A DNA stretch of 64,000 nucleotides from Petroclostridium xylanilyticum (GCF_002252565.1 NZ_NPML01000029.1:186001-250000); one strand, 5' to 3'; positions 11,320 to 34,023 are shown, counted from the first letter of the stretch. Made by a program: numbers and translations. The notes: generated by a model not told the origin, from the letters alone.

Positions 11320-11398
11320 AAAATAGTCCTTTTTTTAAATTTATCCATACCGCCATTGTTAATATAATAGAAGCATCAAATTACAAGGAGGTATGGAT

Positions 11399-15900: not shown

Positions 15901-16518
15901 GTGAAGTATTATACTATACATGAGTTTTCTAAATTAGTTGGAAAAACTCCTCAAACATTAAGAAACTGGGACAAAAAAGGATTACTTATTCCACATCATA
16001 CAGGTGCTAATGGATATAGATATTATTCGCATGACCAATTAAAACAAGTATTAAATATTAAAGAAGATAAAAAATCAAAAGTTATTATAGGATATTGCCG
16101 AGTATCTTCGTATAAACAAAAAGACGATTTACAACGACAAGTTGAAAACATGAAATTATATTTAGACAAACAAAATAAAAATTATGAAATAATTGAAGAT
16201 ATAGGCAGTGGGATTAATTATACTAAAAAAGGATTAAGAACATTATTAAGAAAAATAGTCAACAATGAAGTTGAAAAAGTCGTTGTTCTTTATAAAGATA
16301 GATTGTTAAGATTTGGTTTTGAATTGGTGGAATATATATCTAATCTGTATGGATGTGAAATTGAAGTAATAGATAGTACAGAAAAAACTGAACAACAAGA
16401 ACTTGTTGAAGATTTAGTGCAAATAATAACTGTATTTTCTTGTAAACTTCAAGGTAAAAGAGCAAACAAAGCACGTAAAATGATTGAGGAGTTGACCGAA
16501 GATGATAAAGACAATTAG
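15901..16518 (+). CDS. tnpA: IS607-type serine recombinase TnpA
   Basis: This transposase of about 205 residues has a MerR-like helix-turn-helix at its N terminus (YTIHEFSKLVGKTPQTLRNW), which binds the element ends. A small serine recombinase domain follows, starting IIGYCRVSS, where the second Ser is the predicted nucleophile; further conserved residues are in YKDRLLRFGFELVE. This helix-first order is the hallmark of IS607 transposases. GTG 15901 is preferred over GTG 15892 because AGAGGTGG (15889 onward) precedes it. A TTGACA (15853-15858) and TCTAAT (15876-15881) with a 17-nt gap could drive it. It overlaps tnpB by 17 nt. Confidence 0.95.
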   Translation: MKYYTIHEFSKLVGKTPQTLRNWDKKGLLIPHHTGANGYRYYSHDQLKQVLNIKEDKKSKVIIGYCRVSSYKQKDDLQRQVENMKLYLDKQNKNYEIIEDIGSGINYTKKGLRTLLRKIVNNEVEKVVVLYKDRLLRFGFELVEYISNLYGCEIEVIDSTEKTEQQELVEDLVQIITVFSCKLQGKRANKARKMIEELTEDDKDN

Positions 16519-17716
16519 AGTACAATTATTACCTAACAATAAACAAAAGACTTTATTAAAGAAATGTGCAGATGTGGCACGATGGGCTTATAATTGGGCT
16601 TTATCTAAGCAATTAGAAAATTTTAAAAACGGTGGCAAGTTTATAAACGATGGAGAGTTAAGAAAGGAACTAACACAACTAAAGAAAAATCCTGAATATA
16701 ATTGGTTAAATGAAGTTTCAGCACAAATACCAAAACAAGCAATAAAGGATTTATGCATAGCTTATAAAAACTTTTTCAGAATAGAAAATAAACATTATTC
16801 TGAAAAAACTAAGAAAAAAGCATTAAGACAAGGTAGACAATTGACAGTTTATGATTTAGAAGGACATCCAAAATTTAAAAGCAAAAAAGATGTACAACAA
16901 GGGTTTTATCACAGAGAAGATTTAGGACATTTAAAATTTAAAGGTGATAAAGTAAAACTTGAAAAGATAGGATGGATTAAACTATCTGAAAATAGAATCG
17001 AATTACAAACAGCGGAAAAATTTTATAATCCAAGAATAAAATTTGATGGTTTTAATTGGTTTATAACCGTAAGTATTGATTATAAACCTACCAACAACCA
17101 AAAGTATTCAGATGGAATAGGCATTGACTTAGGAGTTAAAGATTTAGCAGTAATTAATGATGGTAGAAAAATACCTAATATTAATAAGAGTCAAGAAATA
17201 AGAAGATTAAATAAAAAATTAAAAAGACTCCAACGTAAATTATCAAGAAAATATGAAAAACAAAAAGAAGGAGGTGTAAACCGTTATAAGAAAACTAAAA
17301 ACATTATTAAGTTGGAGTACCTTATTCGTAAAGTTCATAAAAAAATAAAAGACATTCGTACAAATTATTTACATCAAGAAACTGCTAAACTGGTGAAAGC
17401 CAAGCCAGAGTTTGTATGTATGGAAGATTTAAACGTTAAAGGCATGGTTAAAAATCATAAATTAGCAAAATCCATACAAGAACAAACATTTAGTGAGTTT
17501 CGTAGAATAATAGAATATAAATGTAAATGGAACAATATTAGATTTATAGTAGCAGACAGGTATTATCCATCAAGCAAGACATGTAGTGAATGTGGATATA
17601 TTTTAGATAAGATGTCTTTATCAACAAGAAAATGGGTGTGTCCTGAATGTGGAATAATGCATGACAGAGATATAAATGCAGCTATAAATCTAATGAAATA
17701 TGGAAAATCAGCATAA
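16502..17716 (+). CDS. tnpB: TnpB RNA-guided nuclease (IS607 accessory protein)
   Basis: This 404-residue protein is of normal TnpB length. RuvC-like catalytic residues are present: Asp209 in GIGIDLGVKDLAV, Glu308 in CMEDLNVKGM, and Asp388/Asp390 in HDRDINAAINLM. A zinc ribbon (CSECG, later CPECG) lies between the last two. TnpB proteins cut DNA guided by an omega RNA made from the 3' end of the element and thereby favour element retention. All catalytic residues are intact. ATG 16502 overlaps tnpA, so translation is probably coupled. Confidence 0.95.
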   Translation: MIKTIRVQLLPNNKQKTLLKKCADVARWAYNWALSKQLENFKNGGKFINDGELRKELTQLKKNPEYNWLNEVSAQIPKQAIKDLCIAYKNFFRIENKHYSEKTKKKALRQGRQLTVYDLEGHPKFKSKKDVQQGFYHREDLGHLKFKGDKVKLEKIGWIKLSENRIELQTAEKFYNPRIKFDGFNWFITVSIDYKPTNNQKYSDGIGIDLGVKDLAVINDGRKIPNINKSQEIRRLNKKLKRLQRKLSRKYEKQKEGGVNRYKKTKNIIKLEYLIRKVHKKIKDIRTNYLHQETAKLVKAKPEFVCMEDLNVKGMVKNHKLAKSIQEQTFSEFRRIIEYKCKWNNIRFIVADRYYPSSKTCSECGYILDKMSLSTRKWVCPECGIMHDRDINAAINLMKYGKSA

Positions 17717-17891: not shown

Positions 17892-19295
17892 ATGAAACTA
17901 TATAATACACTTACACGACAAAAAGAAGAATTTAAACCAGTTACCCCAGGTGAGGTAAGAATGTATTCCTGCGGCCCTACAGTATATAATTATTTTCATA
18001 TCGGTAATGCAAGACCATTTATTATATTTGATACATTGAGAAGATATCTTGAATATAGAGGTTATAAAGTAACCTTTGTACAGAATTTTACTGATATAGA
18101 CGATAAAATGATTAAGAAGGCCAACGAAGAAGGAATTACTGTTAAGGAACTGGGTGAAAGATTTATTGCCGAATATTTTAAAGATGCAAAGGGACTGGGA
18201 ATCAAAGAAGCAACTGTACATCCAAAAGCTACTGAAAATATAGATGCCATTATTGAACTTATCAAAAAATTAGAAGAAAAAGGATTTGCCTATAATGTAG
18301 ATGGAGATGTTTATTTTAATACTAAAAAGTTCAAAGAGTACGGAAAGTTGTCCCATCAACCGCTCGAGGCCCTGGAGGCAGGGGCGAGAATAGATGTAAA
18401 TGAACAAAAGAGAGATCCCATGGACTTTGCATTGTGGAAAAAGCAAAAGCCGGGTGAGCCTGCATGGGAGAGCCCTTGGGGAATGGGCAGACCGGGGTGG
18501 CATATTGAATGTTCTGCAATGGCAAATAAGTATCTTGGAACTACCATTGATATACACAGCGGCGGGCAGGATCTGATTTTCCCTCATCATGAAAATGAGA
18601 TAGCACAGAGTGAAGCCGCCAACGAGGCACCTTTTGCCAACTACTGGCTGCATAATGGTTATATCAATGTAGATAATCAGAAAATGTCAAAATCGTTAAA
18701 TAATTTCTTTACGGTAAGGGATGTAGCAAAAGAATATGATTATGAAGTAATAAGATTTTTTATGTTATCAGCTCATTACCGCAACCCCATTAACTTTAGC
18801 AAAGATTTAATGGAACAGGCAAAAGGCGGGTTGGAAAGAATGTACACCTGCCTTGGCAACCTGGAATTTTTCAAACAAAATGCCCAGGATAGGGCCATGA
18901 ATGGACAGGAGATGGAACTGGCCAGCAGGCTAAATAAGTATAAAGAGAACTTCATTGCAGCCATGGATGATGATTTGAATACTGCTGATGCTATCGCGGC
19001 CATGTTTGAAATGGTCAGGGAAATCAATGCAAATATTACGGCTACAAGCAATTCATCCGTAGTAATTATAGAATTTGCTGCAAACCTGCTAAAGGAGTTA
19101 GGGAACGTATTAGGAATATTGCAAAAGTCACAGCAGAATTCTCTGAATGCTGAAATAGAAGAACTAATTGCTAAACGGCAACAGGCGAGGAAAGAGAAAA
19201 ACTGGACTTTAGCCGACAGTATACGTGACCAGTTAAAAGAAATGGGAATCGTACTTGAAGATACTCCACAGGGGGTAAAGTGGAGAAAGGTATAA
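17892..19295 (+). CDS. cysS: Cysteinyl-tRNA synthetase
   Basis: This class I aminoacyl-tRNA synthetase of 467 residues charges tRNA-Cys. It shows the zinc/active-site region [20 protein letters not shown] (HIGH-type HIGN), the WHIECSAM motif with [15 protein letters not shown], and KMSKS as [12 protein letters not shown]. The C-terminal anticodon-binding part is complete. No Shine-Dalgarno sequence stands before the ATG; the upstream bases are the right end of the IS607 element, and the likely original site is stranded at 15811. The gene is probably essential, so it must be expressed despite the insertion, by read-through from cysE/tnpB, a weak internal site or an element-borne promoter. In many Firmicutes mrnC follows cysS directly; here it lies at 38396. 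Confidence 0.96.
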
Positions 19296-19429
19296 ATCAG
19301 AAAAATGATACTCAGCCCAATGTGATGTACCAAGTACGATGTATATCCCTGTTTATCGTGAACAATGAACGGTTTTTGTGCTGTATTGCAGCATGGCGGT
19401 TAATAACAAATAACAGGAGGCTGGTCAAA

Positions 19430-21025
19430 ATGGAAGCAATCAGCGTCATGCTTGTAGACGATGAAAGACTTGCGATTGAAGACCTGAGAAATTTAATCCG
19501 GTGGGATGAATATGGGTTTGAAATTGTTGCTGAAGCCACCAACGGGAAAAAAGCTTTAGGACTTTATGAAAAGTATTTTCCACAGATCGTAATTGTCGAT
19601 ATACGCATGCCGGTAATGGACGGTTTGGAATTCAGCCGGAGGCTGCTCTCCCATGGAAGACATACCAAAATTATACTTTTGACTGCTTATAAAGATTTTG
19701 AGTACGCAAAGCAGGCAATAGAAATAGGTGTTTCCAACTATATCTTAAAACATGATATCAATGAACAGAGTCTCCTGAGTGAACTCAACAAGATAAAAAA
19801 GGAACTGGAGACGGAAAAAAGAAGGCATGGCGTTCTGAGACAGCAATTTTTAAAGGAAGTTTTAGAGGGCAGGACTCCTGATGAATGGATAAGATATGAA
19901 AATAAGGACTATATAGAGAATCCAAAAGAAAATTTTGCTTTACTGTTGGTACATCTTGATGTCCCGTACCCGGTGATGGATGGGTTTGTACACATTACAG
20001 GAAATCCTATCGATGAAAGGCTGGATTTAACCGGACTAATATTGCCTGAAAGCATCTATTACATGGAAAAGATAAGTATTGATCATGAAACGCTTGCTAT
20101 CCTTGTTTCCATTAAAAAAATCTACAGCCAGCGTGAGGTCAGGGAAACACTGTACCAGACAGCATGTCACATCCAGAAAAAATTTAGGCAGCAATGGGGG
20201 GATACGGTATCAATTGTCATGACGTCAACCAGTTGTGGCATAGAAGGTATATCCCCGCTTTACCAAAAAGCCTTGAATGTTATCCGCTACAGTGTCTTTG
20301 CAGGGAGGGAAAAAATTTTCCGCCACCAGGAACTGTTTGACAGGATAAGCCATAGTCCAATCAATGTTGAACCTGGACTCGGGAGAATGTCAAAAAGTTT
20401 GAAAAGTGTGGAAATTAACCTGGTAGAGGCAGAAATTGAGAATTTATTTATGCTGGCAACCTTTCCCGGCTGGAATTACTTTGGGTTGAAAAAAGTATGC
20501 AGCGGGTTGTTATATTTATTAGAAAATTACAGGCAGAATAACGCCCTGGCTTCAATATCAGCTGATGTACCCAATCGGAATGATGAATGGACAGATTGCT
20601 GGTATTCTGTTGACGGGATAAAGTGCTGGTTTAAAGAAGAGTTCGCCAAAGCGCTGAAAAGCGTCATGGATATTAAGGCCAACGGATATTCCAAAAAAGT
20701 ACAGAAGGCAATCAACTATATCGAAAAGCATTACAGTGACGACCTGACCGCCGAAAGGTTAGGAGAACTGTTTGAAATCAACGGCATTTATTTAAGCCAG
20801 TTGTTAAAAAAAGAAACGGGATACACGTTTCTGGAATATCTCACCAACTGTCGGATCAAAGCAGCAAAAGATTTGCTGGCTACCGGAAAATATAAGGTCT
20901 ATGAAGTAGCGGAAATGGTAGGGTACAAAACAAGCCAGTATTTCAGCCAGGTATTCCGGAAGGTGACCGGTATCAATCCGCTGGACTTTATGGAAGGTGG
21001 GGAAAATGATGAAAATGAGCATTAA
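19430..21025 (+). CDS. YesN-type response regulator (receiver plus AraC DNA-binding domain)
   Basis: This 531-residue regulator has an N-terminal receiver with the acidic pair Asp10-Asp11 (VMLVDDERLA) and phospho-acceptor Asp57 (VIVDIRMPVMDG). A long central region of unknown role follows. The C-terminal AraC-type double helix-turn-helix (about 430-525) includes YEVAEMVGYKTSQYFSQVF. ATG 19430 follows CAGGAGG at 19414-19420; the longer in-frame extension has no ribosome site and overlaps the cysS end. It overlaps the start of the histidine kinase gene, forming a two-component system. It sits directly before a sugar ABC transporter and galactan hydrolases, which it probably activates. Confidence 0.93.
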   Translation: MEAISVMLVDDERLAIEDLRNLIRWDEYGFEIVAEATNGKKALGLYEKYFPQIVIVDIRMPVMDGLEFSRRLLSHGRHTKIILLTAYKDFEYAKQAIEIGVSNYILKHDINEQSLLSELNKIKKELETEKRRHGVLRQQFLKEVLEGRTPDEWIRYENKDYIENPKENFALLLVHLDVPYPVMDGFVHITGNPIDERLDLTGLILPESIYYMEKISIDHETLAILVSIKKIYSQREVRETLYQTACHIQKKFRQQWGDTVSIVMTSTSCGIEGISPLYQKALNVIRYSVFAGREKIFRHQELFDRISHSPINVEPGLGRMSKSLKSVEINLVEAEIENLFMLATFPGWNYFGLKKVCSGLLYLLENYRQNNALASISADVPNRNDEWTDCWYSVDGIKCWFKEEFAKALKSVMDIKANGYSKKVQKAINYIEKHYSDDLTAERLGELFEINGIYLSQLLKKETGYTFLEYLTNCRIKAAKDLLATGKYKVYEVAEMVGYKTSQYFSQVFRKVTGINPLDFMEGGENDENEH

Positions 21026-22778
21026 AACAAAAATTCTGTTAAGTACAAGTCTTGTCATTATGGTTTCCCTTATCCTGAGTGGAACATTTGCCTATTACTA
21101 TTTTGCAAATATTTTAAAAGAACAGGCGGTGAAGGATGACAAGGTAAAGCTTCGGCAAACCGCACGCCAATTGGAATACTATTCAGAAGATATCATCAAA
21201 TTTTCGCAAAATATTATTACTGATAAAGATGTGCAGGAATATATGCGGAAGGATAATACGGTTGAAGATCCATTTGCCATGTTATCTGCAAAAAGTAAGG
21301 TCATTGAGCGCTTGAAAGATTATATCGCGTTGAGGGGCGGCTACATCCACAGTGCTGTCCTGATTAAAAATGACGGCAGTATTTGCTTTAATTTAGTGCC
21401 TTTCAGTGATGATTATATGAGGAATCACCTGAAAGAAGACTGGTATCCTGCCTATGAGGACAGAAAAAACAACTATTATTTTTCCAGGCCCCATCATATG
21501 GACATACGGGGCGTGCCGGCTGACGTAATCAGCTGTATTGTGACCATTCAAAGCGTTAATCAGTCGGACAAGGTACTGGGAGAGTTAATTCTGAATCTGA
21601 GTATGCCGTATTTTATAAAGTATATTGATGAAGCAAGCAAAGGGTTTGATGATTTCATGTGGGTTAACCAGGAAAACTGTATAATATATGCCAAAGCCGG
21701 TGATAAAAAATATCTTGATGTGAAGGACATTGCTGCCTATGTTTCGGGACCGCCTGTACAAGAGCCCCAGTTGATTTCAAAGCCGGACGGATACATTGTA
21801 TTGGACCGGTCAATGGACAACGGATGGAAACTGGTATCCTTTACTTCAAACAAACGGCTTTTTCAGCGTATAGAATATATTTTTTACTTTTTTGTTTTTT
21901 TTATTCTTGCAAGTCTGATTTTTATCATAGCCGTTATTATGCCTATCATTCTCAATATTACAAAGCCCATCACAAAGCTCACAAGAAAGATAAAAGAGGT
22001 TTCCGGCGGCAATCTTGATGTAGAAATACAGATATCCAGCGGAGATGAAGTGGAGGCTTTATGTACGGGATTTAACAAAATGATAGGAGATATAAAAAGA
22101 CATATCAATGAATCCATTGAGCACGAGAAGGTGAAAAGGAAAATGGAATTTGATATCATGCTGTCTCAGATAAATCCTCATTTTATTTATAATGTACTCA
22201 ATACAATTATATACATGGCCAGAAAGGAGAAAAATCAAAACATTGCAAAAGTTACAGATTCATTGATAAGAATACTGCAGGATGGCATAAAGCTTGGAAA
22301 AAGCGGATTGTATACCAGTATCCGGCAGGAGATGGAAATCGTTAATCATTATGTTGAAATACAAAAATTCCGTTATAGTGAAATCTTTGTACTGGAGTGG
22401 AAAGTGGACGAGAGTCTCCTGGATTGCCTGATTCCCAAGACACTTATCCAGCCTTTGATAGAGAATGCACTATTTCACGGTATTTGCCCTAAAGATGAAA
22501 AGGGGACAATTATTGTTTCCATTTTTAAAGATGAAAAGGATGTAAAAATTATTATTGAAGACGATGGTGTCGGGATGGACCAGGATATGATCGATTCCAT
22601 ATTAATAGGAGAAAAGCATCTCAACTCCGGGGATAGTGTAAGGCATATCGGGATTTCCAATATCAGGGACAGACTTAAATACCTATATGGTGAAGACTAC
22701 CGGCTTGAAATAGACAGCAGGCCGGGTGAAGGTACAAAAATTACTTTAAAAGTTCCCTTTGTGATGGGTGAATCTTAA
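21006..22778 (+). CDS. YesM-type sensor histidine kinase
   Basis: This 590-residue membrane sensor has a transmembrane helix at about 9-30, an extracytoplasmic sensor domain of roughly 250 residues, and a second helix near 290-315 (FYFFVFFILASLIFIIAVI). HAMP, a LytS/YesM kinase region with the phospho-His at about 392 (LSQINPHFIYNVLN), and an ATPase domain (LIENALFHGI, EDDGVGMD) follow. ATG 21006 overlaps the response regulator stop by 20 nt and uses GGAAGGTGGGG inside that gene, indicating translational coupling. Such kinases sense extracellular oligosaccharides, often through a partner binding protein; the SBP gene follows 100 nt downstream. Confidence 0.92.
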   Translation: MMKMSIKTKILLSTSLVIMVSLILSGTFAYYYFANILKEQAVKDDKVKLRQTARQLEYYSEDIIKFSQNIITDKDVQEYMRKDNTVEDPFAMLSAKSKVIERLKDYIALRGGYIHSAVLIKNDGSICFNLVPFSDDYMRNHLKEDWYPAYEDRKNNYYFSRPHHMDIRGVPADVISCIVTIQSVNQSDKVLGELILNLSMPYFIKYIDEASKGFDDFMWVNQENCIIYAKAGDKKYLDVKDIAAYVSGPPVQEPQLISKPDGYIVLDRSMDNGWKLVSFTSNKRLFQRIEYIFYFFVFFILASLIFIIAVIMPIILNITKPITKLTRKIKEVSGGNLDVEIQISSGDEVEALCTGFNKMIGDIKRHINESIEHEKVKRKMEFDIMLSQINPHFIYNVLNTIIYMARKEKNQNIAKVTDSLIRILQDGIKLGKSGLYTSIRQEMEIVNHYVEIQKFRYSEIFVLEWKVDESLLDCLIPKTLIQPLIENALFHGICPKDEKGTIIVSIFKDEKDVKIIIEDDGVGMDQDMIDSILIGEKHLNSGDSVRHIGISNIRDRLKYLYGEDYRLEIDSRPGEGTKITLKVPFVMGES

Positions 22779-22878: not shown

Positions 22879-24243
22879 ATGTACAGAATTCAATGGAAAA
22901 AAGCAATATGCATGGTGGCGGCCGTATTCATGCTCAGCAGCCTGCTTGCGGGGTGCGCTGGCAATAATGCCACAAAGCCGGCAGAAGATGCCGCAAAAAA
23001 AGAGGAGACGGCAAAAACTGAATTTTCGGCTGACAAAAAACCGGAAGACTACAACTGTACGCTTACAACCTGGGGCTGGGATGAGAATTACTGGAATACT
23101 GTAACCTCAGCCTTTAACAAGAAATACCCGAATGTAAAATTTGAATACACGCCTATGGCAAATGGTGATTCGGTGCAGAAATACCAGACTGCACTTGCTG
23201 CAGGGACTGAGCTGCCGGATATTGCATGGGCCATCATCGATTCAAGGGCCAAGCTTTTCGAGCTGGACATGTGGGAACCATTAAACAAGCCCCCATATAA
23301 TTTTGATATTAATCAGGTGTTTGATTATTTGAAACCTGTTATGGTAAACTCAAAAGGCGATGTGTGCGGTATCGAGCAAAGTGTCAGTCCTGCCGGCCTT
23401 GCCTATAGAAGAGATTTGGCAAAGCAGTATCTGGGAACAGATGACCCTGCAGAACTGGAAAAGATGTTACCTACCTGGGACGCTTTTATTGAAAAGGGCA
23501 AGGAAATAAAGCAGAAAAGCGGCGGTGAAATCTTTATGTGGCCCGGGATGGGAGATGCAGCGCAGTTTATCAGGGAACAAAATCCCAGCCCGTGGGTTGA
23601 AAATGGTAAAATCATGGCCACCAAATCTCTCAAGCCGACACTTGACCTGCTGGTAAAATTCAGGGATGCCGGTATTGTTGACAAACTTGATGCATGGTCA
23701 CCGGCATGGTATGCTTCCTATGGACAGGGGAAACATATGTTCGCCGGCTGCGCAACATGGACATCACAGTTTGTTATCCAACCCAATGACAAAGATGGCA
23801 AAGGTAAAGGACATTGGGGCTTGATGAATGCTCCGGGCGGCAATATCAGCTGGGGCGGTACCACGCTGGGAATTTCAAAAACATGCAAGAATAAGGACGC
23901 AGCCTGGGAGTTTATTAAGTTTGCCACACTTTCCAAGGAAGGAGCAGAAGCAATTAAACAGATCGGGAATTTTACTTCTGCAAAAGAACCTTACAAAGAT
24001 CCCAATTTTGCATCCTTCAAAGACGAATGGTTTGGAGGCCAGGATACAGGAAAATTCTTTATAGAGCAGGTAATCCCTCAAATTAAGCTAAGACCGATGA
24101 CCAAGGATGACAATATCATTCATGACGCAATGCAATTGGTAACTACTGCTTTAAATTCTAATCCGCAAATGACTTCGGATGAAGCGTTGAAGAAATTGAT
24201 TGAGGAAATTAAAAACAAGCTTCCCGATGCACAGATAGAATAG
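22879..24243 (+). CDS. Sugar ABC transporter substrate-binding lipoprotein (CUT1 family)
   Basis: This lipoprotein of 454 residues captures extracellular oligosaccharides. It has a signal peptide with lipobox LLAGC (Cys at about 26), an acidic/Lys linker, and a MalE-like fold with typical phrases such as YNCTLTTWGWDENYWNTVTS near the start and the C-terminal helices. GAGGAGG precedes the ATG. Its position between the two-component system and two CUT1 permeases, upstream of GH35 and GH53 enzymes, points to galacto-oligosaccharides as substrate. It is separated from the permease genes by a structured region (24335-24464), which may lower downstream expression as is common for binding-protein genes. 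Confidence 0.92.
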   Translation: MYRIQWKKAICMVAAVFMLSSLLAGCAGNNATKPAEDAAKKEETAKTEFSADKKPEDYNCTLTTWGWDENYWNTVTSAFNKKYPNVKFEYTPMANGDSVQKYQTALAAGTELPDIAWAIIDSRAKLFELDMWEPLNKPPYNFDINQVFDYLKPVMVNSKGDVCGIEQSVSPAGLAYRRDLAKQYLGTDDPAELEKMLPTWDAFIEKGKEIKQKSGGEIFMWPGMGDAAQFIREQNPSPWVENGKIMATKSLKPTLDLLVKFRDAGIVDKLDAWSPAWYASYGQGKHMFAGCATWTSQFVIQPNDKDGKGKGHWGLMNAPGGNISWGGTTLGISKTCKNKDAAWEFIKFATLSKEGAEAIKQIGNFTSAKEPYKDPNFASFKDEWFGGQDTGKFFIEQVIPQIKLRPMTKDDNIIHDAMQLVTTALNSNPQMTSDEALKKLIEEIKNKLPDAQIE

Positions 24244-24245
24244 TA

Positions 24246-24276
24246 TGAAAATAGCTTGGAGCTCGGGGCTCAGAGT
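24246..24276 (+). repeat. Short dispersed repeat, copy 1
   Basis: AAATAGCTTGGAGCTCGGGG begins at about 24249, and the segment continues to GAGTTT. It matches the segment after the rubrerythrin terminator (35165-35193, AAATAGCTCGGAGTTCGAGG and onward) at about five sixths of positions. Both copies lie immediately after a transcription unit. Function is unknown. Confidence 0.45.
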
Positions 24277-24334
24277 TTGGAGTATGTGAGACACAATAGA
24301 ACCGATGTGGGTGGGTATCATCATATATAAAATG

Positions 24335-24464
24335 TTGCAGCCGGAAAATCACCATGGAGGGTGATTTTAGGCTTATCCCGGCACGGATGCCGGTATAAGC
24401 CGACGGCAAAACATGGAATACATGATGGTACCCATCCGTGGGAATGTATTTTCATCATTTTTTT
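24335..24464 (+). ncRNA. Structured RNA: closed three-way junction with two hexaloop hairpins, then a terminator-like hairpin
   Basis: Hairpin A is AAAATCACC (24345-24353) / GGTGATTTT (24360-24368) with loop ATGGAG. Hairpin B is GGCTTAT-C-CCGGC (24370-24382) / GCCGG-T-ATAAGCC (24389-24401) with loop ACGGAT. GCCG (24340-24343) and CGGC (24404-24407) can close both into a junction. A further hairpin AATACAT (24417-24423) / ATGTATT (24444-24450), with inner CCCA/TGGG, precedes a T-run at 24458-24464. It lies between the binding-protein and permease genes, so it may stabilise the upstream message and attenuate downstream transcription. Both loops have A1 and G4. No known riboswitch class was recognised. 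Confidence 0.6.
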
Positions 24465-24508
24465 GTATTGCTCTCACCAATTAATTTTAAATGAAAGATG
24501 GTATCACT

Positions 24509-25465
24509 ATGGAAGTAATGTCAAATGCGAAAAATAACACTGCTTACTTGAAACGCAAAAAATATAATATCTGGCCGTATTTATTCCTGTTGCCGTTTTT
24601 TGCACTATATACTGCTTTTTTTGCGTATCCGACCCTTTATTCATTCTATATTAGTTTAACAGATTGGGACGGGGTGGCCGGGATCAATAAAATGAAATTT
24701 GTCGGATTGGCAAATTATATCCGGCTATTTACCCGCGATACCCTTTTTTATAAATCTTTATTCAATACTTTGCTGTTTATGGTTTTATATATTCCCGTCG
24801 TTATATTTGGCGGATTGGTGCTGGCTGTCTTATTATATAAGTTAAAAAGCAACCGCCGGTTGTTCCAAACTTTGAACGTACTTCCTTATATCACAACACC
24901 TGCAGCCATAGGCGTCATATTTGCGTTTATGTTTGACTGGTCAACCGGTATTATCAACAAAATCCTTGTTGCCTCCGGCCTTGTACAGGAAGGCATCAAC
25001 TGGCTCGGTATTGGAAGTACGGCACGATTTGTTGTTATCCTGATGCTGATATGGAAAAATTTTGGATATTATTTAATTATTTATCTTGCGGGATTATCCA
25101 CAATACCGGAAGAACTGACAGAAGCTGCACTGGTTGACGGCGCCAATGAGAGGCAGATATTTTTTAAGATTACCACGCCTTATTTGAGACCGATCACACA
25201 ATTCCTTATTATTACAAGTATTACCGGAGGGCTTCAGTTGTTTGACGAGCCAATGGTTTTATTTGGAGGAAGCGGAGGAGGACCCTTCCTGATTGGGGGT
25301 CCGGACAGGTCGTGCCTTACAGGAATGATATATTTCTATGATAGGGCATTTAAAAGTACGACTTTTCTGGGCTACGGCGCTGCGATTACCTACGGAATTT
25401 TCATTTTTATTGTATTGTTAAGTTTCATTAGCTCCAGGCTGCTATACAGAGAGGAGGAAAGATAG
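24509..25465 (+). CDS. Sugar ABC transporter permease (MalF-like)
   Basis: This inner permease subunit of about 318 residues has six hydrophobic helices and the cytoplasmic ATPase-contact loop EELTEAALVDGANERQIFFK (the EAA motif). It partners the permease that starts at its stop codon. No ATP-binding subunit is encoded in this locus, so a shared MsmX-type ATPase elsewhere is expected. ATG 24509 is preferred because AAAGATGG (24494-24501) lies 7 nt upstream; ATG 24491 has no ribosome site. It belongs to the galactan island. Confidence 0.9.
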   Translation: MEVMSNAKNNTAYLKRKKYNIWPYLFLLPFFALYTAFFAYPTLYSFYISLTDWDGVAGINKMKFVGLANYIRLFTRDTLFYKSLFNTLLFMVLYIPVVIFGGLVLAVLLYKLKSNRRLFQTLNVLPYITTPAAIGVIFAFMFDWSTGIINKILVASGLVQEGINWLGIGSTARFVVILMLIWKNFGYYLIIYLAGLSTIPEELTEAALVDGANERQIFFKITTPYLRPITQFLIITSITGGLQLFDEPMVLFGGSGGGPFLIGGPDRSCLTGMIYFYDRAFKSTTFLGYGAAITYGIFIFIVLLSFISSRLLYREEER

Positions 25466-26271
25466 TGAAAAAGCTGTTATTTATCGTTCCTCTGGCGATT
25501 ATAACCGTAATTTCCGTATTTCCCTTTTATTTTGTGTTCGTGATGTCTACCCACACCACGGCAGAAATTTATAAAGGAGATATATTTTTTCCCGGATATG
25601 CTTTTATAGAAAATTTTAAGACTATCATTCATGGCGGTTTTTTACGTTACTATTGGAACAGCTTTTATATATCCGTTTTATCTGCCGCTTTATGTGTATT
25701 AGTCAGTGCATTAGCCGGTTTTGCATTGACAAAATATGATTTCAGGCTGAAAAAGCAGCTTACAACATTTATTATATTGACCATGATGGTTCCGGGCCAG
25801 ATTGCCATGATAGGATATGCTGTTCAGATGAGGCATCTTAAGCTTTCCGGGACGCACGTACCCCTCATTCTGATATGGGGTGCCAGTTCTTATGCTGTAT
25901 TTTTCATGATGCAGTACATGAAACAGTCGGTACCCAATGAAGTTATTGAAAGTGCACGGATAGACGGCTGTAATGAGCTGAGGATATTTTTTGAAATCGT
26001 AACAGCATTTATAAAGCCTGCTGTCGGAAGCTTGTTTATGCTGATATTTTTATGGTCATGGAACAGTTTCCTATTACAGATGATTATGATTAATAAAAAA
26101 GAATTGTTTACCATACCACTGGGCATACAATCTCTGGCGACAGCCTATACGCAGGATTGGGGGGCAAGAGGTGCAGCTTTGGCAGTATCGGTAATCCCTT
26201 TGCTCATCATATTTGCAATTGGTTCCAAGAGTTTCATAAAAGGATTGGCGGCAGGTGCTGTAAAAGGTTAA
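25465..26271 (+). CDS. Sugar ABC transporter permease (MalG-like)
   Basis: This second permease subunit of 268 residues has six helices and the EAA loop VIESARIDGCNELRIFFEIV. GTG 25465 overlaps the preceding TAG by 1 nt and is preceded by GAGGAGG, so the two permeases are translated together. It completes the membrane channel for the binding protein encoded at 22879. Confidence 0.9.
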   Translation: MKKLLFIVPLAIITVISVFPFYFVFVMSTHTTAEIYKGDIFFPGYAFIENFKTIIHGGFLRYYWNSFYISVLSAALCVLVSALAGFALTKYDFRLKKQLTTFIILTMMVPGQIAMIGYAVQMRHLKLSGTHVPLILIWGASSYAVFFMMQYMKQSVPNEVIESARIDGCNELRIFFEIVTAFIKPAVGSLFMLIFLWSWNSFLLQMIMINKKELFTIPLGIQSLATAYTQDWGARGAALAVSVIPLLIIFAIGSKSFIKGLAAGAVKG

Positions 26272-26384: not shown

Positions 26385-28730
26385 ATGAGAGAATACAGTA
26401 TCAATCTGGAAAATTCAAATAAGAAAATTTATTCAGGACACATAAAATTGGGAGGGACCAGTCTAACGGGGGACAAAATCAGTTTTACAAATTACTATAT
26501 GGAGCTGAATGGAAAGCCTTTTTTCGGGATATGCGGTGAATTCCACTTTAGCCGCTGTGATGAACGGTTCTGGGAAGATGAAATCATCAAAATGAAAATG
26601 TGCGGGATCAACATCATTGCTACTTATATTTTCTGGATCCACCATGAGGAGGAGCAAGGCGTTTTTGAATGGAGCGGTAATAAAAATCTCAGAAGTTTTA
26701 TCCATTTGTGTGCAAAGCATGGCTTATATGTAATCATAAGAATTGGACCTTTTGACCATGGGGAATGCCGAAATGGGGGAATGCCTGACTGGCTTTTCGG
26801 GCGTCCCTTTGATGTGCGGTCAAATGATGAGGAATATCTGGTATACGTGCGAAGGTTATACAGGGAAATAGGCAAACAGGTCAAGGGCTTATTGTATAAA
26901 GATGGCGGGCCGGTGATTGGCACCCAGATTGAAAATGAATATATGCACGCCGGGGCTCCATTGGAGATGACCACCGGCGTAAGTAATGAATGGTTGCCTG
27001 CCGGCAGGGATGGAATCGAACACATGAAAAAGTTAAAGCAGATTGCTATTGAATCAGGCATCGATACACCCATTTATACTTGTACAGCCTGGGGAGGGGC
27101 AGCCGCGCCGGAAGATGAAATGCTTCCTCTTTGGGGAGGCTATGCTTTCTGGCCGTGGATTTTTTATGGGGATGTCAAAGAACATCCTGCCACGCCTGAA
27201 TTTATTTTCAGGGACTACCACAATAATGCCATACCAAAATGCTACAATTTTGAACCGGGATATCCACCTGAAAGCTATCCGTATGCGTGTTGCGAAATGG
27301 GTGGAGGAATGACGGTATTCTATAAATACAGGTTCCAACTGCCTCCTGAAAGTGTTGAAGCGATGGCGCTGGTAAAAGCCGCAGGAGGATGCAATTTTGT
27401 TGGATATTATATGTTCCATGGTGGGTCGAACCCAACCGGGAAACATATAGTATATTTAAACGAGCACGCAACGCCTAAAATATCCTATGATTTCCAGGCT
27501 CCCATCGGTGAGTACGGGCAGATAAGAGAGCATTATAAAAGGCTCAAACTTCTCCATTATTTCTTTAAAGATTTTGAAGAAAGCCTGTGCAGCATGAAGA
27601 CAGTGCTTCCGTATAATACCGAAGATATGGATCCGTATGACATTGAAATACTGCGGTATGCGGCCAGAGTAAAAGATCGTGCAGGATTTTTGTTCATCAA
27701 CAACTATCAGGACCACGTCGAAACAAGAGAGCAAAAGGACTTTTGTATCCATCTGCAATTTGGCAGTGAAAAAATAACGATACCCGAAAAAGGCGGACTG
27801 ACTCTTGGAAAAGACGCCTGCTGTATCTTTCCCTTTAATTTGGAAATGGACGGGGTGCGGCTGAAATATGCGACAACGCAGTTGATTACATGTACCCAAC
27901 ACAATGGTGAAAAATATTACTTTTTCTTTATCCCGCCGGGAATGAAGGGAGAATATGGTTTTGATTCAATCCGGACTGACCGTATTGAGATTGACCATGG
28001 GGAGATCGAAAAGGACGGGGGAATCATCAGAGTCCGGGTCAATGAAGCCGGCATGAGCATTATTAAGCTGACTTCCTGTGAAGGCAATAAAATAAATCTA
28101 TGTACATTGACAAGAGAACAGGCTCTCAATCTATGGAAGGTTCATCTGTGGGGAAGAGAAAGATTAATTATCACCGACGCGAATCTTATTGTTTCGGAAA
28201 ATGAACTGAAATTAGAGTGTGTGGACAAGGAGACGATCAACTTTGGTATGTTCCCGGAAATAGAGGGGGAAGTATTGATTGCCGGTGCAAAAATCGGGGA
28301 ACCAATTAAAAGCGGAATATTTTCCGGTTATATGATCAATATACCTTATAAAAAAATTACGCCTGAAATCAATAAAATCAAAAAATCAAAAGCGGTTATC
28401 AGCTTTAAAGATAATTTATTCAATGGCCTGAAGGAAATTCTTCTCCGTGTTGATTATACGGGAGATATAGGCTATGCATTCATTGATGGCAGGCTTATCA
28501 ATGATAACTTCTGCAATGGCGCCGTCTGGGAAATTGGCCTTAAAAGATATGAGAGCGAGCTTGTTTCAAAGGGAATGTATATCCACATATCACCATTGAA
28601 AAAAGGAGCACATGTAAAAAGTGATTCGACAATGGCTGCACGGATGGAATTATGCGAACAGGAAATTGCAGAAATCCATTCGATTCAGGCGATACCGGTA
28701 TATGAAGTCTCAATAAAACAAAAGATGTGA
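26385..28730 (+). CDS. Glycoside hydrolase family 35 beta-galactosidase
   Basis: This enzyme of 781 residues lacks a signal peptide and so acts in the cytoplasm, releasing galactose from imported beta-galacto-oligosaccharides. The TIM-barrel landmarks FFGICGEFHFSRCDERFWED and VIIRIGPFDHGECRNGGMP fit the family. The acid/base is Glu185 (GTQIENEY) and the nucleophile about Glu304 (CCEMGGGM). The C-terminal half holds beta-sandwich domains. It lies between the oligosaccharide transporter and the secreted galactanase and is the expected next step in galactan breakdown. Substrate specificity is inferred from context. Confidence 0.93.
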   Translation: MREYSINLENSNKKIYSGHIKLGGTSLTGDKISFTNYYMELNGKPFFGICGEFHFSRCDERFWEDEIIKMKMCGINIIATYIFWIHHEEEQGVFEWSGNKNLRSFIHLCAKHGLYVIIRIGPFDHGECRNGGMPDWLFGRPFDVRSNDEEYLVYVRRLYREIGKQVKGLLYKDGGPVIGTQIENEYMHAGAPLEMTTGVSNEWLPAGRDGIEHMKKLKQIAIESGIDTPIYTCTAWGGAAAPEDEMLPLWGGYAFWPWIFYGDVKEHPATPEFIFRDYHNNAIPKCYNFEPGYPPESYPYACCEMGGGMTVFYKYRFQLPPESVEAMALVKAAGGCNFVGYYMFHGGSNPTGKHIVYLNEHATPKISYDFQAPIGEYGQIREHYKRLKLLHYFFKDFEESLCSMKTVLPYNTEDMDPYDIEILRYAARVKDRAGFLFINNYQDHVETREQKDFCIHLQFGSEKITIPEKGGLTLGKDACCIFPFNLEMDGVRLKYATTQLITCTQHNGEKYYFFFIPPGMKGEYGFDSIRTDRIEIDHGEIEKDGGIIRVRVNEAGMSIIKLTSCEGNKINLCTLTREQALNLWKVHLWGRERLIITDANLIVSENELKLECVDKETINFGMFPEIEGEVLIAGAKIGEPIKSGIFSGYMINIPYKKITPEINKIKKSKAVISFKDNLFNGLKEILLRVDYTGDIGYAFIDGRLINDNFCNGAVWEIGLKRYESELVSKGMYIHISPLKKGAHVKSDSTMAARMELCEQEIAEIHSIQAIPVYEVSIKQKM

Positions 28731-28825: not shown

Positions 28826-31800
28826 ATGAAACATTTGAAAAATACTGTTGTTAGTATAATCATGTTTGCAGTGGTATTTTCAATATTTGCGCCAACATAT
28901 GCTTCTGAGACGGTCGCAGAAAGCATTTGCGTAAATCCTATTAAAGGGCTTAACCCTGATTTCATCATGGGTGCAGACATTTCAATGCTGGCCGAAATTG
29001 AAAAAAACGGCGGAAGGTATTATGATCAGAACGGAGTAGAAAAGGATTGTCTCCAGATTCTGAAAGAACATGGAATAAACTGGATAAGGCTTAGGCTTTG
29101 GAACGACCCTACAACCGACGCAAATGGAAAAGCAGGAAATGATATCGTAACAGTTAATGGAAGTCCGGCACCCGAGGGAACACAAGCCGGAGGCGGTAAC
29201 TGTGATGAAGCCACTATAACAGGGCTTGCGGTCAGAGCAAAGGGGCTTGGCTTTAAGGTATTGCTTGACTTCCATTACAGTGATTTCTGGGCTGACCCCG
29301 GAAAGCAGACAAAGCCGAAAGCTTGGGAAGAACTGACAGGAGAAGGTTTGCAAGATGCAGTATATCATTATACCAAAACCGTGCTCAACAATATGAAGAA
29401 CGCCGGTGCAATGCCAGACATGGTACAGATCGGAAACGAAACAAACAGCGGAATGCTGTGGCCAGACGGTAAAACGTCCAATGGCTACGCCGGATGGATA
29501 GGATTGATTAATGCGGCCACAAAAGCTGTAAGGGAAGTGGGAGGAACAAATACCAAAATAATGATTCATCTTGCCGATGGTGGGGATAATGTTTTGTACA
29601 GAAGGGTTTTTGATAAACTTACAGATTTTTCCGATGCTACAGACTATATTGCATCAGCTGATAAATATAACGAGGGAAAGAGTGGGATAGATTTTGATGT
29701 GATAGGTTTGTCCTATTATCCATTTTGGCATGGTTCTTTGGATAAATTCAAAGCTAACATTGACGATATTGCCAAAAGATATGGAAAGGAAATTGCTGTG
29801 GCCGAGATTGGCTACGGTTATACCTTTGCAAACGGGGACAGCCAAAGCAATGCCTTCGGAGAAGGTATGGACGAGATCGGAGGTTATCAGGCCACCGTTC
29901 AGGGACAGGCACAGCTGTTAAGGGATGTCATGGAGGCTGTTTCACAGATTAAGGATAGTGAAGGAAACAGCAAAGGGATAGGTGTATTCTATTGGGCGCC
30001 TGAGTGGATTCCTGTTTTGGACGACAAAGGCAATAATCTTGCAGGATGGATCACAGGTCAAGGAAATGATAGTGAAAACAGGGCACTTTTCGATTTTAAC
30101 GGGAAAGTTCTTCCATCAATTAATGTTTTCAAGGATGTTAGAAAGAGTGTATCTGAACTACCTGAAGGCAAGCTTTATTCAGCAAAAATAATAAAGTTGC
30201 GTCCAGCAAGCGCTACAGTAACAGTCTCTGAAACGTCTGAACTGCCTGCTACCGTAAAGGCCGAATACAGCGACGGAACAATAAGGGATGTCTGCGTAAA
30301 ATGGGATAATATTAAATCTTCAGATCTTTTAAAACTGCATACAATTACTGTATACGGCAGTGTGGAGGGGACTACTGAAAAAGCCGTATTAAACCTTAAC
30401 GTGATAGGAAAGAAAAATTATGTAAAAGATTACAGTTTTGAATCCAGTAATTTGTCGAATTGGACGGTCACCAGAGATTCCGACAGTGTTCAGGCTTACA
30501 TTGAGAGCAGTCCCGGCAACAACGCATATACGGGAGACAGGGTGTTTCACTACTACATTTCCCCCAATTCGTCCGGTTTTACCGTGCAGCAGACAATTAC
30601 CGGCCTTCCAAACGGAACTTATACCTTGAAGGTCGTATCCCACGGCGGGGATTACGGTACGGTTGAAAGATATTTGTTTGCCAAGGATTACGGCGGAGAA
30701 GAAAAAAAGGTGAGTTTTGCCAATACCGGATGGCGGGATTGGAAACAACCTGAAATTAAGAACATTAACGTTACAAACGGCCAGTGTACGATAGGTGTCA
30801 GGATTGTTACCGCGGGAAGTGGCACATGGGGCAAACTGGACGATTTTGAGCTTTACCCGGACCTTTCTTCAGCCAATCTGGCTTTGCCGTATTCCATAAG
30901 TGCAGGTTCCAACTTTACGGTTAAGCTTTCGTACAGCAACCTGATTTACAATGTATATGCCCAGGACATAGCCATAAATTATGATAAGGACAAGCTTGAA
31001 TTTGTAGACGCAGTCGGTGCAAGCAGCGATATAAAAGTACTGAGCAAAGACACTGAGATACCCGGAATGGTAAGGATTATTGCCGCAAATACAGGTACTG
31101 GAGGGTTATCTTGGAATGCAGATGTGCTTAGTCTTTTCTTCAAGGCAAAAAGTGGGTCTATCGGAACAGACGACATAACCATCTCAAGAGTGCTGATGGG
31201 AACAGCCCCTGAAGGATCTGTGGTAGAACCGGCAGGATTGACAACCACAAGAACAGCCAAACCAAGCAGTAGCAGCAATGGCAGCAGCAGAGCAGATTCG
31301 CCTTCCGTTCCTGTGGAAACGACGCCTTCGACAAGCAGCGAGTTAGTAAAAGTGGCGGTTAAAACGCCTGTTGTAGAAAACGGTATAGTAAAAATTTCCG
31401 TAGACGAAATTGCGCTTAAAAATGCTTTTGAAACTGTTCAAGAGGATGCCAAAGGCATGAAAACTGTGCTTGTCTCAGTGGACAAAATTGAAGGACGGTC
31501 CGCGTATGAGGTAATTCTTCCAGCTGCAAGCCTTGCAACAAAAGATTTAAAATATATGATAAAAATTGATACAGGCATAGGAATGATAATTGTGCCTGCT
31601 AATATGCTGAGCATTTCTGAAACTCAGGGAGTGCAAAAAGTGAGTATTGTAATGACCAAAGCGGATAAGGCCGGCCTTGGTAATACGCTTGAAGCACAAA
31701 TATTGGATAGGCCGATAATAGAGATTAAGGTAAAACTTGATGAAAAAGAAATATCATGGGATAATCCTGATGCTCCTGTTACAGTATCCATTCCTTATAC

Positions 31801-32506
31801 GCCAGCTGCTGAAGAATTGAAGGTTCAAGAACATATCGTTGTATGGCATATAGATGATAGCGGAAATATTGCGGTGGTTCCGAATTCAAAGTATGATGCA
31901 ACCAGAGGAGGGGTTGTATTTTCTACGACACATTTCAGCAAATTTGCAGTTGCATTTGTGCATAAAACATTTGATGATATGGATCAATTTGAATGGGCGA
32001 AGAAACCTATACAGGTCCTTGCATCTAAAGGCATAGTCAAAGGTACTTCCGAGACAACGTTTACACCGGAAAAAAATATAACAAGGGCCGAGTATATTGT
32101 AATGCTTGTCAGAGCATTTGGTCTCACTGCAAAAGTGGATGGGAACTTTAACGATGTAAAAAGCACCGATTACTATTACCAAGCCGTTGGTATTGCCAAA
32201 AAGTTGGGGATAGTCACAGGGACTGACAATAACAACTTCAATCCCGGAGAAAGCATTACAAGGCAGGATTTGATGGTGTTGACGGCAAGAGCTCTTAAAG
32301 CAGCTAAAAGACTGTCGTCTGAGGGTTTTGCAGAAGATTTGGAAAAGTTCAAGGATGTATCGGAAATATCAGATTACGCATTGGAATCTGTTTCAGTACT
32401 TGTAAATAAAGGTATTGTAAACGGCAGAAATGGACTTATCCATCCAAAAGACGATGCTTCCAGGGCGGAAGCGGCAGTAATTATATATAGAGCGTCAAAA
32501 AATTAA
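28826..32506 (+). CDS. Secreted GH53 endo-beta-1,4-galactanase with CBM-like, cohesin-like and SLH modules
   Basis: This extracellular enzyme of 1226 residues cleaves the beta-1,4-galactan side chains of pectin. Visible modules in order are: signal peptide (1 to about 27); GH53 barrel (about 45-430) with acid/base Glu205 (QIGNETNSG) and nucleophile Glu327 (VAEIGYGY); an Ig-like domain (about 453-525); a carbohydrate-binding-like sandwich (about 529-680, NYVKDYSFESSNLSNW); a cohesin-like domain (about 682-808, VYAQDIAINYDKDKLEFVDA); a Ser/Pro linker; a domain common in S-layer proteins (about 836-1045); and three SLH repeats (about 1054-1226). SLH repeats bind the cell-wall secondary polymer. 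The cohesin-like module could recruit a dockerin protein such as the one encoded next. AAGGAGG precedes the ATG. Confidence 0.93.
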   Translation: MKHLKNTVVSIIMFAVVFSIFAPTYASETVAESICVNPIKGLNPDFIMGADISMLAEIEKNGGRYYDQNGVEKDCLQILKEHGINWIRLRLWNDPTTDANGKAGNDIVTVNGSPAPEGTQAGGGNCDEATITGLAVRAKGLGFKVLLDFHYSDFWADPGKQTKPKAWEELTGEGLQDAVYHYTKTVLNNMKNAGAMPDMVQIGNETNSGMLWPDGKTSNGYAGWIGLINAATKAVREVGGTNTKIMIHLADGGDNVLYRRVFDKLTDFSDATDYIASADKYNEGKSGIDFDVIGLSYYPFWHGSLDKFKANIDDIAKRYGKEIAVAEIGYGYTFANGDSQSNAFGEGMDEIGGYQATVQGQAQLLRDVMEAVSQIKDSEGNSKGIGVFYWAPEWIPVLDDKGNNLAGWITGQGNDSENRALFDFNGKVLPSINVFKDVRKSVSELPEGKLYSAKIIKLRPASATVTVSETSELPATVKAEYSDGTIRDVCVKWDNIKSSDLLKLHTITVYGSVEGTTEKAVLNLNVIGKKNYVKDYSFESSNLSNWTVTRDSDSVQAYIESSPGNNAYTGDRVFHYYISPNSSGFTVQQTITGLPNGTYTLKVVSHGGDYGTVERYLFAKDYGGEEKKVSFANTGWRDWKQPEIKNINVTNGQCTIGVRIVTAGSGTWGKLDDFELYPDLSSANLALPYSISAGSNFTVKLSYSNLIYNVYAQDIAINYDKDKLEFVDAVGASSDIKVLSKDTEIPGMVRIIAANTGTGGLSWNADVLSLFFKAKSGSIGTDDITISRVLMGTAPEGSVVEPAGLTTTRTAKPSSSSNGSSRADSPSVPVETTPSTSSELVKVAVKTPVVENGIVKISVDEIALKNAFETVQEDAKGMKTVLVSVDKIEGRSAYEVILPAASLATKDLKYMIKIDTGIGMIIVPANMLSISETQGVQKVSIVMTKADKAGLGNTLEAQILDRPIIEIKVKLDEKEISWDNPDAPVTVSIPYTPAAEELKVQEHIVVWHIDDSGNIAVVPNSKYDATRGGVVFSTTHFSKFAVAFVHKTFDDMDQFEWAKKPIQVLASKGIVKGTSETTFTPEKNITRAEYIVMLVRAFGLTAKVDGNFNDVKSTDYYYQAVGIAKKLGIVTGTDNNNFNPGESITRQDLMVLTARALKAAKRLSSEGFAEDLEKFKDVSEISDYALESVSVLVNKGIVNGRNGLIHPKDDASRAEAAVIIYRASKN

Positions 32507-32647
32507 TAATTTGGTGTTGAACATGTTTAGACGCATGGATACGGAAACATGTTCCGGCATGCTGTATGAATAAAGTGTATAAGGTGCTGGAAACGGCGTT
32601 TATCACCTTTTTGAAAACTATATGCAATATTGTAGGAGGAAAACTGC

Positions 32648-33679
32648 ATGAGAAATAAAACTAAATTCTTATCAGTTATACTGTCAGTGTTTCTACTGGC
32701 AGGAACTTTGGTTCCAAATGCGGTGGTATTGGCAGTTGAACAGACCAACTATGTGGTAAATGGAGACTTTGAAACTGATAGCGATTCAAATTGGAAACCG
32801 GACAACTGGATGGTATCGTCTGGCATTGAACCGCATACATGGCTGAGCGGTTCGGAAAACAAGGTATTGAGCATAAAGTCTACAGGTGTCGAAAACAGAG
32901 GGACCGTAACACAAGCTGTGTATGGCACAGACGGCGACAGACTGCCTGACGGTATATACACGCTGGAAGCGAAGATACAGGGGGATATAAGTGGAATCGA
33001 ATCATTGAAATTGTTTGTGACTGATACGGATGAATCGGACGAAACCAGTGAAGAATGTAAAGATCAAATAAACTCCAGTGAATTTACTACTTTGAAACTT
33101 GAAAATGTCAAAGTAACTGCGGGAAGATGCACAATCGGCATAGCAGTAGAACTTAACAATAGTTTGGCTGAATGGGCGTGGATACTGGATATAGACGACA
33201 TTTCGTTTTATAAGACAAGAAATATCGGTGAACAATTGCCGGTTGTCCAATCGGTGGAAAATCCAGAACCTATAAGCACGGTGGTGAACGAGGTGCCAAA
33301 ACTTCCGAAAACCGTAAAAGCATATTTGTCCAATGGTACTACTATAGATGCCGATGTGAACTGGATTTTGCCAAATCCGAATTTGTACACAGGAGAAGGT
33401 ACGATAGGAACGAGCTTTACGGTAAACGGAACCATAAGAGACAAGGTCGCCGAAACGGATATTCCTGTTGAAATTAATGTTACTGTCACATACAAGACGT
33501 TTGACCTAAATGGCGACGGGAGAGTTGATGTTGGAGACCTTGCAATAGCGGCGTACTATTATGGGACAGATTCAAATAATGATAACTGGCATAACATAGA
33601 AACTTATGATATCAACGGAGACGGAAAGATTGATCTAACAGAGCTTCAATTGATTGCTATTAAGATTGCAAACAACTAA
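32648..33679 (+). CDS. Secreted CBM-like protein with C-terminal dockerin-like module
   Basis: This non-catalytic-looking protein of 343 residues has a signal peptide (cleavage near VLAVE). A sandwich domain beginning NYVVNGDFETDSDSNWKPDN resembles the binding module of the adjacent galactanase. An Ig-like domain (about 203-280) shares the pattern of the one in the galactanase. The dockerin-like end (285-343) has two calcium-loop repeats, DLNGDGRVDVGD and DINGDGKIDLTE, each followed by a helix. Dockerins bind cohesins, and the neighbouring gene encodes a cohesin-like module, so the pair may assemble on the cell surface. It could add galactan-binding capacity. The two loops differ from the classical Ser-Thr recognition positions, so partner specificity is uncertain. 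Confidence 0.85.
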   Translation: MRNKTKFLSVILSVFLLAGTLVPNAVVLAVEQTNYVVNGDFETDSDSNWKPDNWMVSSGIEPHTWLSGSENKVLSIKSTGVENRGTVTQAVYGTDGDRLPDGIYTLEAKIQGDISGIESLKLFVTDTDESDETSEECKDQINSSEFTTLKLENVKVTAGRCTIGIAVELNNSLAEWAWILDIDDISFYKTRNIGEQLPVVQSVENPEPISTVVNEVPKLPKTVKAYLSNGTTIDADVNWILPNPNLYTGEGTIGTSFTVNGTIRDKVAETDIPVEINVTVTYKTFDLNGDGRVDVGDLAIAAYYYGTDSNNDNWHNIETYDINGDGKIDLTELQLIAIKIANN

Positions 33680-33718
33680 AAAAACAAAAAAGAATGTTAT
33701 CCAAATACTCAAGCCACA

Positions 33719-33809
33719 AGAGCCTGTAAACTTGTGTCTTAGGTCAGTAGGGCACAACTTCCTCCGCTTAGAAATGCCCCCTGAACCCAGCCGCAAGTTA
33801 ACAGGCTCT
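33719..33809. repeat. Palindromic element sharing the TTAACAGGCTCTA core
   Basis: AGAGCCTGTAAACTTG (33719-33734) and CAAGTTAACAGGCTCT (33794-33809) pair at 15 of 16 positions. The interior has further partly complementary segments (AGTAGGGCA with TGCCCCCT). It lies after the last gene of the galactan island. The core is shared with the repeats at 26284 and 38841. The rest of 33680-33975 holds no recognisable gene. Confidence 0.55.
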
Positions 33810-33975
33810 AGGACTTTTCGAAGTTTTTTACGTAATATATCGATAACCAGCATTAATGGTTAAAAATAAATTAATGCAGTTATCGATGAAATTAAGCGAC
33901 TTTAAAACAAACAGTATTTAGTTTTAAAGTTGGTTAATTATAAAAAATAAATACGCAAAAAATTATTAAAAAGTA

Positions 33976-34023
33976 TTGACAATTATTTGGTAGGTAATTA
34001 TAATAAAATTGTAATCATTACAA
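33976..34023 (+). promoter_or_regulatory. perR-rubrerythrin promoter with Per box
   Basis: TTGACA (33976-33981), 17 nt, and TATAAT (33999-34004) form a consensus promoter. TTGTAAT-C-ATTACAA (34009-34023) is a perfect 7-1-7 inverted repeat of the PerR/Fur operator type placed over the expected start of transcription. Autorepression by the downstream regulator is the natural reading. Confidence 0.85.

Follow-up and report, generated by a model that had tools for sequence, protein, structure and literature searches.

Two adjacent genes of Petroclostridium xylanilyticum probably encode a minimal surface complex without a scaffoldin: the single cohesin of an anchored galactanase would capture the dockerin of a neighbouring gene's product as a second binding arm. 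They occupy positions 28826-33679 of the window, the whole 64,000-nucleotide stretch that was analysed (NZ_NPML01000029.1:186001-250000). Most work on cohesin–dockerin assembly concerns multi-cohesin cellulosomes, whose many near-identical modules blur specificity. The galactanase and its partner are a very small, directly testable relative of the cellulosome. With one cohesin and one dockerin in adjacent genes and an enzyme that would anchor itself, they offer a clean natural system for measuring what a docked binding arm gains.

The first gene (28826..32506, + strand, 1226 aa) encodes a GH53 endo-β-1,4-galactanase with the module order GH53–Big_4–CBM61–cohesin–linker–3×SLH, as assigned by Pfam and, for CBM61, by phmmer. 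Its N-terminus reads as a Sec signal peptide. The catalytic domain (aa 47-435, 28964..30130; Pfam PF07745, E 7.5e-119) contains the motifs GNE (203-205) and AEIG (326-329), whose glutamates we take, from what is known of clan GH-A, to be the catalytic pair; family profile and presumed catalytic glutamates together place the enzyme in GH53. An Ig-like Big_4 domain (aa 461-516, 30206..30373; Pfam PF07532, E 1.9e-12) is followed by a galactan-binding CBM61 module (aa ~528-677, 30407..30856), which phmmer relates to TmCBM61 (2xom, E 6e-25) and to the galactanase 9fli (E 6e-31). Beyond the cohesin, a linker of about 240 residues leads to three SLH repeats (from aa 1048, 31967..32503; Pfam PF00395, E 8.1e-35, in three stretches) with the motifs TRAE (1086), TRQD (1145) and SRAE (1212). 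The genome holds 36 SLH repeats in all and one wall pyruvylation gene of PF04230, the CsaB-type pyruvyl-transferase family (E 2.5e-45), so that SLH anchoring of the galactanase to the wall is plausible.

The cohesin of this enzyme (aa 678-812 as modelled, 30857..31261, + strand) has a Pfam core at aa 692-790 (PF00963, E 8e-11), which scores 42.7 bits against a curated cut-off of 24.1. An AlphaFold2 model of aa 678-812, for which the window's own sequence was aligned with seven from relatives (eight in all), reached a mean pLDDT of 88 and a pTM of 0.82 and shows the jelly-roll fold of cohesins. When the model was searched with Foldseek and VIA-align, the top matches were the cohesins of Clostridium perfringens glycoside hydrolases. 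Structure 2vo8 superposed with a Z of 19.9 and an rmsd of 1.5 Å over 130 residues, and 2jh2 with a Z of 18.6, whereas cellulosomal cohesins ranked lower (Z ~16 and below). The nearest solved relatives by sequence alone are the NagJ cohesins of C. perfringens (E ~1e-3).

The second gene (32648..33679, + strand, 343 aa) lies 141 bp further on and encodes a secreted partner with a signal-like N-terminus and no catalytic domain match in Pfam. It consists of a divergent CBM61-like module (aa ~27-190, 32726..33217), a Big_4 domain (aa 209-263, 33272..33436; Pfam PF07532, E 1.3e-7) and a C-terminal type I dockerin (aa 281-343, 33488..33676), all on the + strand. The dockerin matches Pfam Dockerin_1 (PF00404) over aa 285-336 (E 2.8e-8; 34.3 bits against a cut-off of 22.9) and has two complete F-hand calcium loops, DLNGDGRVDVGD and DINGDGKIDLTE, both with the canonical calcium ligands. 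Since this part of the partner model is of low confidence (pLDDT 45-65), the assignment rests on the sequence profile and the loop residues. A PDB sequence search returned mostly EF-hand proteins, such as calmodulin; this kinship was rejected as one of shared calcium loops only, and the Pfam match and the C-terminal two-loop layout decided for a dockerin.

Module matches in both open reading frames pass curated thresholds and are not due to chance. The initial annotation, made from the sequence, had placed GH53 catalysis, a binding module, a cohesin-like domain and three SLH repeats in one polypeptide, beside a secreted CBM-like protein ending in two dockerin calcium loops. The Pfam and CBM61 matches bear it out, as do the profile searches it proposed for both docking modules, and the cohesin fold on which it had staked residues 682-808 is present in the model. 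Its view of the enzyme as scaffold and anchor at once is supported. The Big_4 domains of both proteins and the identity of the binding module as CBM61 can now be added.

The galactanase and its partner close a cluster that lies entirely on the + strand. It begins with a two-component system (19280..22778; Pfam Response_reg, HTH_18, His_kinase) made up of an AraC-type response regulator (19280-21025) and a histidine kinase (20997-22778). An ABC importer follows (22879..26271; Pfam SBP_bac_8, BPD_transp_1), with a solute-binding protein (22879-24243) and two permeases (24491-25465 and 25465-26271). Upstream of the galactanase is a GH35 β-galactosidase (26385..28730; Pfam PF01301, E 3.8e-58) without an evident signal peptide, which is probably cytoplasmic. 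A promoter and terminator scan found no promoter-like site on the + strand from 31765 to 33976 and, within the scanned stretch, no + strand terminator-like site past 29585. The lack of intervening sites is consistent with a single transcript, and galactanase and partner are likely co-transcribed. A perfect consensus sigma-70 promoter (TTGACA-17-TATAAT, 33976-34004) just downstream of the two genes marks the end of the galactan cluster; the open reading frames behind it read as Fur-family regulator-like and rubrerythrin-like. Elsewhere in the window are a GH38 α-mannosidase (11393-14551) with four of four GH38 domains present and, adjoining cysS, an OrfB/IS605-type transposase (16502-17716; TnpB-like, with a Cas12f1-like TNB domain).

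Whether the two modules are meant for each other was approached through their occurrence in the genome, which was searched in six frames (3.86 Mb, 41 contigs, 99% complete). The Pfam models found one cohesin, that of the galactanase, with no other candidate, and one dockerin, that of the partner. A 12-row dockerin alignment searched against the whole genome up to E 10 gave no further dockerin. Under random placement in the genome, about 0.003 dockerins would be expected within 5 kb of a cohesin. A similar association holds for 19 non-cellulosomal relatives that have a cohesin as well as a dockerin: of the 58 dockerins among the matches listed, 24 lie within 5 kb of a cohesin, modules of the same open reading frame included, against 0.69 expected.

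The two-gene unit also recurs. Paenibacillus nanensis encodes a GH53-Big_4-CBM61-cohesin-SLH protein (L069, 9980-13540) and, after a gap of 22 bp, a CBM61-Big_4-dockerin protein (13563-14519); its cohesin is 35% identical to that of the window, and the enzymes are 51% identical in GH53. A further genome of the P. nanensis family, G653, carries a window-type unit (L249, 3110-6817 and 6814-7797) whose open reading frames overlap, with the stop and start codons as TGATG. The cohesin of the window groups with those of P. nanensis and G653 in a single clade (support 0.90). All three loci adjoin genes for a histidine kinase and an AraC-type response regulator; ABC permeases are likewise found next to those of the window and P. 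nanensis, the G653 stretch compared being shorter. The minimal two-gene unit proposed in the initial annotation is thus upheld by uniqueness in its own genome and by recurrence in others.

A permuted form of the unit was found in five loci of the P. nanensis family, namely in P. sinensis (L067), Paenibacillus sp. NFR01 (L071), P. spiritus (L072) and two further genomes (L250, L257). Here, the first gene encodes GH53-Big_4-CBM61-cohesin-dockerin and the second cohesin-SLH. The first dockerin loop is frequently degenerate, and it was often a local model derived from relatives, not Pfam, that detected the dockerin; the cohesin of the L257 enzyme falls below the Pfam reporting level. The permuted unit supports the reading of the window's genes as a docking pair. 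Three genomic tests therefore favour the pairing of cohesin and dockerin with each other: the genome's sole representatives are the two in question, the unit recurs, and so does its permuted version.

A cohesin is not a general feature of Paenibacillus GH53-SLH proteins, as none of the six examined carries one. The Paenibacillus and Cohnella galactanases at L065, L066, L068, L070, L073 and L074 share the arrangement GH53-Big_4-CBM61-...-SLH with the window enzyme, but they lack the cohesin and carry a second CBM61 or an fn3 domain within the chain instead of on a docked partner. Comparison of fused, window-type and permuted loci shows that a galactanase and its binding modules are held on the cell by three routes: in one chain, with the binding partner docked to the enzyme, or with the enzyme docked to an anchor. 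These three solutions raise the question of why a protein should be split and then re-joined via docking. In Selenomonadales, short proteins consisting mainly of CBM61 and without a dockerin are encoded directly behind a GH53-CBM61 gene (L076:11896-12426, L083:13703-14221); the idea of a CBM61 partner may be older than its docking. A relative from the window's own family (G003, L142, 1060-12963) has a small docking cluster of three proteins in a row: a 2085-aa protein with two cohesins and a dockerin, a 1228-aa cohesin-SLH protein and a 557-aa protein with a dockerin.

The weakest link of the proposed complex is the partner's ligand. The N-terminal module of the partner matches the enzyme's CBM61 only weakly (29% identity, E 2.7e-4), and Pfam gives a weak CBM_4_9 (E 0.01). 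A PDB sequence search with the module alone returned zero matches; in a fold search, TmCBM61 (2xom, E 1.2e-8) best matched the AlphaFold2 model. The module shares only ~20-30% identity with other CBM61s, and the NTGWxxW tract that its CBM61 relatives conserve is missing from it; its galactan specificity is therefore uncertain. For the pectic galactan complex of the initial annotation, this leaves galactan binding by the partner doubtful. This divergence, together with the CBM_4_9 match, would suit a pair that docks but whose partner binds another pectin or cell-wall glycan, the complex then targeting galactan embedded in a different polymer. Such an arrangement is unlikely, given that TmCBM61 is still the best fold match and that the corresponding modules of the P. 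nanensis and G653 partners are far more readily recognised as CBM61 (E 7e-17 against the module of the window enzyme; HMM E 2.6e-39). Because of these clearer relatives, the ancestral role of the partner module was probably galactan binding.

The cohesin and dockerin might also be relics or general interaction domains with their natural partners elsewhere, the galactanase recruiting dockerin proteins from other members of the community or the partner docking onto other bacteria. Some relatives do have a cohesin without a profile-detectable dockerin, or the reverse, and cohesins and dockerins can each bind across species in vitro. This is nevertheless very improbable where the genome's single cohesin and single dockerin adjoin each other, the unit is present, its modules complete, in two further genomes, and the dockerins of relatives lie near cohesins so far above expectation. 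Pairing between copies rather than simply one to one, or a non-adhesive role in which the partner shields or regulates the anchored enzyme, is scarcely credible: the titles of the solved complexes 2vn5/2vn6 allow dual binding modes for dockerins, but the partner has one dockerin only and a recognisable sugar-binding module.

For the preferred reading, a docked galactanase–partner complex, the following course of events can be proposed. The GH53 galactanase would be exported and tethered to a cell-wall polymer by its SLH repeats, while its CBM61 would grip β-1,4-galactan. Its cohesin would capture the partner's dockerin in a calcium-dependent manner, giving the enzyme a second, exchangeable binding arm beside the catalytic domain. 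Galacto-oligosaccharides set free by the enzyme would be taken up by the neighbouring ABC importer for cleavage by the GH35 β-galactosidase, with the adjacent two-component system in control. The module identities, the cohesin fold, the one-to-one occurrence in the genome and the recurrence elsewhere were established by computation; from them we infer binding, calcium dependence, the partner's ligand and the flow of substrate.

The initial annotation had contrasted the two genes with classical cellulosomes, in which scaffold and enzymes are separate, and this contrast was overstated. A classical cellulosome was itself rejected for this genome, which has one cohesin and no multi-cohesin scaffoldin, and whose sole dockerin belongs to a protein in which no catalytic domain was matched. 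Five C. perfringens proteins with enzyme-borne cohesins are described in PMC12997984, which sets them apart from scaffoldins and cites Adams 2008. The X82 cohesins of GH84, GH33 and other enzymes form pairs that resemble those of the window in having one cohesin within a glycoside hydrolase and in assembling pairwise without a scaffoldin, and they include the best structural matches to the window cohesin. Their dockerin partners are glycoside hydrolases that act on host glycans, whereas the window's partner is non-catalytic with a Big_4-dockerin end, and its enzyme, unlike theirs, is SLH-anchored and directed at pectic galactan. The window thus shares with C. perfringens the single cohesin fused to a glycoside hydrolase, but not a glycoside hydrolase as dockerin partner.

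A second precedent is the amylosome of R. bromii, in which the amylase Amy4, with a cohesin and a dockerin, doubles as scaffoldin Sca1 (PMC5814915), and Sas20 is a non-catalytic, dockerin-bearing starch-binding protein (PMC9112005). It shares with the window a cohesin-carrying enzyme and a dockerin-carrying binding protein, but it comprises five scaffoldins, 27 dockerin proteins and sortase anchoring, in contrast to one cohesin, one dockerin and SLH repeats on the enzyme. Chains combining cohesin and SLH, as in the window enzyme, have been described in cellulosomes as anchoring scaffoldins (class 4, PMC11557425); these are non-catalytic and occur in genomes with multi-cohesin scaffoldins, unlike the window protein. 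The survey in PMC11557425 counted only genomes that encode a protein with two or more cohesins and would therefore miss the window system. Searches of the open-access literature turned up neither a galactanase with cohesin and SLH repeats nor any other cohesin-bearing, SLH-anchored enzyme that has a dockerin partner of its own. Enzyme-borne cohesins and dockerin-bearing binding proteins are thus already known, and the SLH-anchored galactanase with its own partner is a variant of them.

A larger system of related design is encoded by P. nanensis, which has at least 29 cohesins and at least 22 dockerins; 18 of these dockerins closely follow a cohesin within one open reading frame, as judged by position and reading-frame length. 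On contig C42, at ~55-123 kb (L264-L267), a cluster of ~70 kb encodes large glycan-active proteins that end in cohesin-dockerin, with GH101, GH20, GH29, GH2, GH95, GH84 and sialidase-like enzymes. A 344-aa cohesin-SLH protein stands directly before the run led by GH101. When L269-L273 are included, nearly all glycan-active proteins, among them also GH43, GH10 and others, end in this tandem, and cohesin-SLH proteins of 344-383 aa lie beside several of the tandem-bearing proteins.

The P. nanensis tandem cluster looks like a surface system for O-glycan degradation that does without a scaffoldin and is possibly built head to tail, and the C42 proteins could form linear chains; alternatively, each cohesin-dockerin tandem may bind to itself instead. 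The same head-to-tail logic is seen at the scale of a single enzyme in the permuted GH53 loci. That the window's two genes are the smallest form of a broad scaffoldin-free type of assembly, in which enzymes carry the cohesins and dockerins themselves and are chained head to tail starting at an SLH-borne cohesin, is a tentative proposal with somewhat less than an even chance of being right. Cohesins were found in 191 of the 297 genomes sampled from the P. nanensis family, many of them with at least 13, and cellulosome surveys seem to understate greatly how widely Paenibacillaceae use cohesins.
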